Notes under the pieces: generated by a model | Database searches by the model: none | What the model was told of the DNA's origin: nothing | Seen by the model: only the letters and a program-made list of their open reading frames with translations | Shown here: piece by piece, positions 42,266 through 43,359 of the stretch | Numbering within the stretch: the first letter of the stretch is position 1 | How the letters are laid out: every line of letters begins with the position of its first letter | Origin: Globisporangium splendens | Taxonomy: Eukaryota > Oomycota > Peronosporomycetes > Pythiales > Pythiaceae | Length of the DNA: 64,000 bases | Reading direction: 5' to 3' | Assembly: GCA_006386115.1 (NCBI GenBank) | Contig: VFIW01000003.1 | Coordinates: 248,001 to 312,000 of the forward strand | Made by a program: the position numbers and the translations under genes

Positions 42266-43359
42266 CTACTTGAAGGATTTCTTGCCTTTATTGAGCCTGA
42301 CAACGACGGGGAGAACAAAGCGAATCTCGTGGATCCATTCTCCATATACGTTGACCTCGCCAAACCTTCCAAGCTTGAACCGAGCAATCCCCTGGCGCTT
42401 CTCCACCATATAGAATGTGCCGGCTTTAACAGATAGCGCAAAGCAATGTCCAACAGGTGGGCTGCTCTGGTCGTAAGCACCCACCAAATAGATGCCATCT
42501 GAGAGCGGAAGCTCCAGCAGCCTGTCCGGCCCACATATGGCCGACGTCACTCTGTTCTTGAAATCTTGTAACGAAAGGTTGACGCCGAGCTTGGTGATTA
42601 TTTTCGCAAATTCACACAATGCCTTATGGTTGACGCCGTCCGAGAGATTGATGTTCTTCTCCTTCTTCTTGGACTTGAATGATTCAAACGCTTTGTCGGA
42701 CGGAGCGACGTTCACACCAGCCAACTCAAGGGCGAGCTTTAGGCTGTTGAAGACACACAAGCCGTCGTCGTCGGCAGTCATACCCCTTCTCATCTCTGGC
42801 GTCTTGATGAACTGATCGAAAGTCATGCTTGGCTTGGTCAAACGCGCTCGATTAAACTTGCGGAGGATTTCTATAGCATCCTTGCCATCCTCGGTCATAG
42901 CAAACGATTCCTCTGGTTCCCAAGTCGTTGAAGTCCTTGCCTTCCCAGTTGCCTTGTCGTTTGGCTCGAGCCACACAACATGGAACTGCTCAACCTCAAC
43001 GCCGTTGACAATCTTCAACCGATAGTCGTTAGCGCGGAGGAAGATGTAAAGACCTTCTCGCCCGCAGCAGGATCGACACGAACGCCAAGCAATTCACTCG
43101 GCGGATCCTCACAAACTGCAGAACCGCCGTTCGTCATTGTCACTACATTTGGCGGGTTCTCGTCGGCGACCAAAACCACGTTCGTCGTAACACTGGCAAT
43201 CTCCACACTGGAGGCAGAACCATCAATAGCTTCAATTGAGTTGACTTGACCTTCGCTTGACAATGGCGAGCTTGGTGGCGAGGGATCTTCACTAGACGTC
43301 AGAAACATCGCACCGAATCGAGCCAATGCTTCACGCCGCGCTCTTGTCATTCGGGCCAT
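42266..43359 (-). CDS. E1 antisense accessory gene: chromodomain plus cysteine-peptidase-like domain
   Basis: The gene runs opposite to gag-pol between the pol stop and the 3' LTR. It starts MARMTRARREALARFGAMF at 43359, followed by a Ser/Pro/Glu-rich region. The frame changes near 43060-43090, by intron or frameshift. The next frame has GLYIFLRANDYRLKIV, then FHVVWLEPND and TTWEPEESF, a chromodomain-like pattern (Y-x-V-x-W-x-x-x-x-x-x-T-W-E-P). After a linker come DDDGLCVFNSLKLALELAG and PPVGHCFALSVKAGTFYMVE, which look like the Cys and His blocks of an OTU/papain-like cysteine peptidase. It ends VVVRLNKGKKSFK. A clearly related, more damaged protein lies at the same place in E2, so the gene belongs to the element. 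Chromodomains bind methylated histone tails; the peptidase call is inference from two short motifs. Confidence 0.7.

Follow-up and report, generated by a model that had tools for sequence, protein, structure and literature searches.

The window analysed here is a 64,000-nucleotide stretch of the genome of the oomycete Globisporangium splendens (contig VFIW01000003.1, positions 248,001 to 312,000 of the forward strand). It contains a Ty1/copia retrotransposon, E1, and on the opposite strand, between the pol gene of E1 and the long terminal repeat (LTR) that follows it, an accessory gene that is the subject of this analysis (Table 1). A preliminary description had placed an antisense gene here; it is real, and the motifs quoted for its product, HVVWLEPND, TTWEPEESF, DDDGLC and GHCFALS, are found on the minus strand. 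In the interval from the pol stop to the LTR at 43695, a minus-strand frame that ends with a stop codon at 42266-42268 is open to 43093, and an ATG at 43359 starts the N-terminal part of the gene. Stop codon and ATG lie at the ends originally proposed, but these do not enclose a single frame: by comparison with undamaged copies the E1 copy lacks about 382 bp, a length not divisible by three, which puts its N-terminal part out of frame with the chromodomain–peptidase part. The NCBI protein for this site, P0002, joins both out-of-frame parts. A second copy in the adjoining element, E2, has the matching position and orientation, is 40% identical to the E1 copy and has one TAG between the part with the putative catalytic Cys and the part in which the putative catalytic His is replaced by Gln.

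Three other copies in G. splendens, L016, L017 and L018 (contigs C21, C138 and C90), have a frame of 515 codons, or 491 from the first ATG. They lie in 7-kb elements whose LTR pairs of 277-278 bp are identical within each element and have TG...CA ends, and which are flanked by 5-bp target duplications (AACTT, CAGAA and CATGG, respectively). The proteins of L017 match the Pfam families Retrotran_gag_2, gag_pre-integrs, SH3-like and RVT_2. The carrier thus has the LTR ends, target duplication and copia-type gag and reverse transcriptase (RT) of a Ty1/copia element. A chance open frame is ruled out, since the longest frame found in 2000 first-order Markov shuffles of the 1907-base region of L016 was 263 codons, compared with the 515 observed. 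From the identical LTRs and the intact antisense frame we conclude that the element takes the gene with it when it moves.

The gene is not confined to these elements, and this is our main result beyond the original finding: it forms a family common to copia and long interspersed nuclear element (LINE) retrotransposons. The census was made within one genome, the G. splendens assembly of 53.3 Mb in 195 contigs, in which the window is on contig C129. The window protein, used as query, found 12 matches, one of which, at 33% identity, lay beside a LINE; searches with two pieces of this LINE-side copy gave 16 and 17 matches, and a further locus, C35, was added by a fetched flank and three further searches. 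Loci were assigned by comparing open reading frames (ORFs) 1 and 2 of the LINE, copia pol and the gene against the fetched loci. There are 29 in total: 17 LINE, 11 copia-type and one, on C126, with neither a LINE nor a copia neighbour within 1.5 kb. The possibility raised at the outset, that the gene might be absent from other copies, can be set aside, and a host gene hit by an element is ruled out, as 28 of the 29 loci are copia-type or beside a LINE ORF2. The copia-type loci are E1 and E2 in the window, C21, C138, C90, C143 (two), C63, C14, C12 and C121. The gene is antisense to pol in all eight that have pol in view; C14, C12 and one of the C143 loci have the gene or pieces of it without pol in view. 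C121 belongs to another copia branch, with an RT region 60-71% identical, and is degraded. Clustered copia copies with 45-47% RT identity, such as those on C183, were considered as carriers and rejected, C183 having no gene match in the searches.

In the LINE loci, which represent several lineages, the gene lies beyond the 3' end of ORF2. It is antisense in 12 (C117, C70, C162 at 1703 kb, C119, C29, C34, C151, C153, C46, C114, C122 and C35) and sense in five (C162 at 1673 kb and 1692 kb, and C111 three times). ORF2 of the LINE in L053 matches Exo_endo_phos (3.8e-8) and RVT_1 (3.1e-35), that is, the APE-type endonuclease and RT of a LINE. These LINEs form a large family: a survey gave 598 first-look candidates, of which 34 elements were scored in 36 rows, and seven of the 34 adjoin the gene, by position. 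Five LINE 3' flanks were fetched as gene-less; one held a distant copy (C35) and four were truly without the gene. The gene is therefore optional in LINEs.

Table 1 Positions of the antisense gene and of the elements that carry it (window coordinates unless another sequence is named)
Feature	Position	Strand	Remark
Antisense gene, in-frame part: chromodomain and peptidase-like domain, stop included	42266..43057	-	
Chromodomain, residues 1-76 of window:42269-43057:-	42830..43057	-	
Putative catalytic Cys codon (in DDDGLC)	42755..42757	-	
Putative catalytic His codon (in GHCFALS)	42446..42448	-	
Putative third residue codon, Glu	42401..42403	-	
Deletion junction, ~382 bp gone	43055..43057	.	Seen when L016, L017 and L018 are aligned to the window; 3-bp overlap between the flanking alignments
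N-terminal part from ATG, out of frame with remainder in E1 copy	43055..43359	-	
E2 gene copy, chromodomain and Cys part	45927..46322	-	
E2 gene copy, His part (His replaced by Gln), after in-frame TAG	45570..45917	-	
5' LTR of E1	37278..37555	+	278-bp match to LTRs of L016-L018; TG...CA ends
E1 gag plus the first part of pol in a single open frame, 815 aa	37494..39941	+	L017 equivalent matches copia gag and pre-integrase Pfam families
E1 pol, RT and RNase H part	40380..42163	+	Two overlapping frames, 40380-41501 and 41420-42163; RT survey; equivalent region of L017 matches RVT_2
E1 pol stop codon	42161-42163	+	
LTR common to E1 (3') and E2 (5')	43695..43971	+	
Third LTR, 3' end of E2	47299..47572	+	~81% like the other two
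Second long frame, antisense to gag	37869-38975	-	L016 2042-3160; L017 7595-8713; L018 7745-8863

The product of the gene has an N-terminal half that is charged and of low complexity, a chromodomain, and a domain predicted to be a papain-like cysteine peptidase, its triad being Cys-His-Glu/Asp. In an alignment of the family, and leaving out of each count the pieces that do not reach the residue in question, the Cys is found in 24 of 24 rows, the His in 21 of 24 (Gln in three) and the Glu or Asp in 23 of 23, in the residue order of clan CA. One C-terminal piece that starts beyond the Cys, C117_b, had a Val aligned at the Cys column, and counting it would give 24 of 25. The triad is kept in most rows although identities elsewhere drop to 20%. 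The predicted fold of residues 123-285 gives modest matches, at sequence identities of 6-14%, to several papain-fold families, the best being YopQ, viral tegument deubiquitinases and C39 peptidases, with further resemblance to Josephin-2 and TssM; in the predicted model the Cys is at the start of a helix and the His at the start of a strand. The model of the window copy itself is poor (predicted local distance difference test, pLDDT, 49 overall) and its peptidase part failed. Matches to torovirus polyproteins in a viral structure library (best E 5.3e-4) superposed with a root-mean-square deviation of 11-12 Å and were not used. At the level of sequence, no peptidase family in the Pfam scan recognises the domain, Pfam gave no relevant family for the window and intact copia proteins, the window protein found nothing among PDB sequences, and a profile of the peptidase domain alone found none there at E up to 10. 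The domain had been described as of OTU/papain type. The order Cys-His-acid and the modest predicted-fold matches support a papain-like cysteine peptidase in kind; OTU as the family is rejected, there being no OTU match in five Pfam scans, while the absence of an OTU chain among the 50 fold matches listed leaves an OTU fold possible. The resemblance of the predicted fold to tegument deubiquitinases, Josephin-2 and TssM suggests that the activity might be that of a deubiquitinase or deSUMOylase.

A catalytically dead protein would be an alternative, in which the papain-like fold binds ubiquitin-like proteins or gag and, for example, limits copy number. The lack of a sequence match to any peptidase family and the Gln that replaces the His in three rows would agree with such a regulator, but the retention of Cys, His and acid in most rows at such low identities would not, and we regard it as unlikely.

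The chromodomain claimed in the preliminary description is borne out by both a family profile and a predicted fold. The profile, built from 12 family members, finds the chromodomains of cpSRP43, HP1 and CBX among PDB sequences (best E 1.5e-6). The predicted model of a relative from G. ultimum has the three-strand sheet and C-terminal helix of a chromodomain and superposes on those of MPP8, Rhino and HP1. Single family members fall below the Pfam cut-off for the domain (best 20.5 bits compared with 25.1), no Pfam match is returned for either the window protein or P0001 by itself, and the block in C121 matches Pfam Chromo at an E of only 0.026. In the aromatic cage, whose positions were assigned from those of HP1, a Trp is found in 23 of 23 rows and the first position is mixed, while the third aromatic, three places after the Trp, is missing in 23 of 23, so that the full methyl-lysine cage is not present. 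Neither is the arrangement that of a chromovirus, as the chromodomain is in a separate gene, antisense in copia, and is not fused to integrase.

These observations bear on the idea that the gene steers the element to marked chromatin. A separate chromodomain protein could act as a tether, guiding the element's insertion machinery to particular chromatin with the peptidase-like domain as a docking module, and the chromodomain, present by profile and by predicted fold, would suit this, as would the precedent of chromodomain–integrase fusions described for Chronos and chromoviruses (PMC5348765). The gene, however, is separate and usually antisense, the third cage residue is missing, and a docking module would have no need of an invariant Cys and acid and a nearly invariant His. 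Moreover, the LINEs carry the gene too. LINEs insert without an integrase, and the presence of the gene in both integrase-using and target-primed elements makes a tether for integration unlikely; the steering originally suggested is weakened.

Comparison of pairs of copies indicates selection on the protein. The differences at first, second and third codon positions in the more diverged pairs are 83/64/122 (copia, C21 and C63), 106/78/213 (LINE, C162b and C162a), 39/28/99 (C122 and C35) and 92/69/140 (C119 and C34); the close pair C34 and C153, at 7/10/9, is without the third-position pattern. Of 14 pairs compared, 12 gave an NG86 ratio of nonsynonymous to synonymous rates (dN/dS) and nine a YN00 ratio. 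The NG86 ratio is 0.16 for the C21–C63 pair, where dS is saturated at 3.6, and 0.22 for C162b–C162a (dS 1.2); in those close pairs that have a ratio it ranges from 0 to 0.57 on few changes. The two pairs that include the broken E2 copy have YN00 ratios of 0.93 and 0.75. The diverged pairs thus show selection on the protein.

Searches for protein homologues found 11 proteins, ten from G. splendens and one from G. ultimum, among 7988-7995 candidates scored per search; only the candidates with the most words in common were scored, and acidic low-complexity stretches may have crowded this set, so that absence outside Globisporangium is not implied. The G. ultimum relative is 82% identical to G. 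splendens protein P0007, which C70 encodes at 97-99% identity. P0002, P0007, P0008, P0009 and P0011 are gene models that depart from what the genome encodes when read directly, in a way that suggests predicted introns, and were used as deposited. In a gene tree of 20 rows, from which six pieces were left out, the copia copies form one clade (100/100) and the LINE-sense copies another (96/94), while the LINE-antisense copies make up one side of a weak branch (63/40). A single transfer between the copia and LINE classes, in either direction, would suffice for this tree. Exchange appears also to have taken place among the LINEs. In the comparison of C34 with C153 (L025 987-3332 and L027 990-3339), the gene and the end of ORF2 have 91% DNA identity over 1750 columns, after which the identity drops to 76%. 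We read this drop as the mark of a recombination or template switch within ORF2, and it suggests that LINEs swap 3' modules with one another.

Such mobility raises the question of whether the gene is merely a passenger, a captured or self-spreading cargo at the 3' ends of elements that does nothing for them. Its optional presence in LINEs (four of the five fetched flanks), the flips of orientation between lineages and the swapped 3' modules of C34 and C153 are what a passenger would give. Selection on the protein in diverged pairs, intact genes in recently inserted copia copies and a constant position 3' of the RT gene, wherever the neighbour is in view, are not, and we consider a passenger improbable. 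That the antisense RNA rather than the protein is the functional product, regulating the sense transcript, is highly improbable. In its favour are the antisense orientation, seen in 12 of 17 LINE loci and in each of the eight copia-type loci where pol is in view, and the discussion of antisense transcripts as regulators of plant elements (PMC7264820). Against it are the selection on the protein, the conserved triad and the sense orientation in five LINE loci, which speaks against antisense RNA as the conserved function.

We therefore favour, tentatively, a product that is a nuclear, trans-acting, chromatin-directed cysteine peptidase or deubiquitinase countering silencing. The conserved triad points to an enzyme and the chromodomain to a chromatin location; expression apart from the element's genomic RNA is suggested by the separate direction of reading. 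The protein would act in trans, in the nucleus, where the chromodomain and basic patches would hold it on chromatin and the peptidase would act on a chromatin protein responsible for silencing retrotransposons, either cutting it or taking ubiquitin or SUMO off it. The need that the gene serves would then be one that both carriers have, escape from silencing for instance, and not the joining reaction. Copia elements and LINEs have the nucleus and host silencing in common, and it is this that leads us to an anti-silencing role. The cleavage or deubiquitination of silencing factors, already suggested in the preliminary description, is thus the reading that we prefer. A fuller version is possible, and we put it more guardedly: a mobile anti-silencing enzyme of an undescribed peptidase family, which has moved between oomycete Ty1/copia elements and LINEs and which strips ubiquitin or SUMO from chromatin-bound silencing factors or cuts them. 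Two points weigh against an anti-silencing enzyme. We infer both the expression and the activity of the product, from sequence, and most of the scored LINE copies are without the gene.

Several further features of the carrier elements were observed. In the window, 37278-47572 is a head-to-tail pair, LTR-E1-LTR-E2-LTR, with the middle LTR in common, and E2 has lost a large internal part of its pol. E1 and the C90 copy have at least 444 bp of 5' flank in common (window 36834-37278; L018 9457-9901), which indicates that one insertion, or a duplicate of it, is the origin of both; contig C90 may be an allele or a duplicate of the E1 site. A second long frame, of 368-373 aa, lies antisense to gag in E1 and the three intact copies and may be a mere mirror of gag codon use. 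L016-L018 all have an in-frame stop codon midway through pol, despite LTRs that point to recent insertion, which would be accounted for by read-through or by help in trans. The sequence GG(A/T)TATGAGCCC is found just inside the 5' LTR, at 1726-1740 of L016 and at the corresponding place in L017 and L018. Drosophila copia is primed by the anticodon part of initiator tRNA-Met, and a primer site for this part of the tRNA would fit the sequence found here. Contigs C183, C150, C112 and C12 have dense clusters of another copia lineage, with 38-47% RT identity to E1. These clusters may mark centromeres, as copia clusters are reported at centromeres in Phytophthora (PMC7082073); oomycete centromeres and copia are also treated in PMC11139960. 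In the LINEs, ARAGORN calls tRNA-Met and tRNA-Lys in 3' regions (L055 2912-2986 and 4459-4533, L028 3161-3235, L029 3046-3120 and L030 2882-2956), and tRNA-like stretches uncalled by the program were seen by eye in L014 (~8330-8400) and L053 (~250-300); these possibly reflect tRNA-linked insertion or tRNA-derived tails. The N-terminal half of one LINE gene copy (L026 325-930) is an expanded SRSRS-type repeat, which varies in length between copies and recalls SR splicing proteins.

Antisense accessory genes have been described for years in plant retrotransposons, and the present family gives a domain-level clue to their role. Its presence in a copia lineage and in LINEs narrows that role to something common to both modes of replication. 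If the product does counter silencing, the family would be a counter-defence gene passed between retrotransposon classes that are unrelated, and would give direct access to transposon silencing in oomycetes through a catalytic Cys open to mutation. If it does not, the family would still be an example, outside rotifers, of retroelement classes exchanging an accessory gene. Searches of the open-access literature, with subscription papers, preprints and Repbase outside their scope, showed no paper on this gene among the 8 to 15 titles listed for each, of up to 2720 matching papers.

A trans-acting role of the kind favoured here has a parallel in VANC of the plant VANDAL transposons, a separate gene thought to undo host silencing in trans, although the carrier there is a DNA transposon and the protein is different. 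In its predicted fold, residues 123-285, the product resembles viral tegument deubiquitinases, M48, ComA, PCAT1 and Josephin, but differs from papain-like deubiquitinases and C39 proteins in its identity of 6-14% and in the lack of a profile match. We know of no chromodomain in any of these proteins. Cysteine peptidases encoded by transposons, with ubiquitin or SUMO as their supposed target, are described in Ginger1 transposases, which have OTU and Ulp1 domains; some Helitrons also have OTU, and some Mutator elements have Ulp1 (PMC2836005). These are DNA transposons with recognisable OTU or Ulp1 domains, whereas no Pfam peptidase family matches the product described here.

Retrotransposon-encoded chromodomains are described in chromoviruses, in the oomycete gypsy element Chronos and in the diatom copia element CoDi-I (PMC5348765), and the list in that 2017 paper names LTR groups only, not LINEs. 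With CoDi-I our elements share a chromodomain in a copia element of a stramenopile; unlike Chronos, where the chromodomain is at the end of pol beside the integrase, they have it in a separate gene (PMC5348765). In place and orientation the closest likeness is to aORF-3R of plant Ty3/gypsy elements (Grande gene23, RIRE2 and Retand TRP28), antisense ORFs between pol and the 3' LTR that are present in several copies and are described as of unknown function (PMC7264820; PMC11963269 for Retand TRP28). The 2020 review describes no clear similarity of plant aORFs to other proteins (PMC7264820). The present family differs, on the descriptions given rather than by sequence, in being carried by copia elements and LINEs and in having a chromodomain and a predicted peptidase as its product. 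Accessory domains are treated in PMC6338049. In the sharing of one type of accessory gene across retroelement classes, the family is most like ORF3 of bdelloid rotifer LTR elements, which encodes a GDSL esterase or a DEDDy exonuclease (PMC5408684). The abstract of that paper has neither a chromodomain–peptidase nor sharing between LINE and copia elements; the enzymes and hosts are different, and the sharing there is with Penelope-like elements (PMC5408684).
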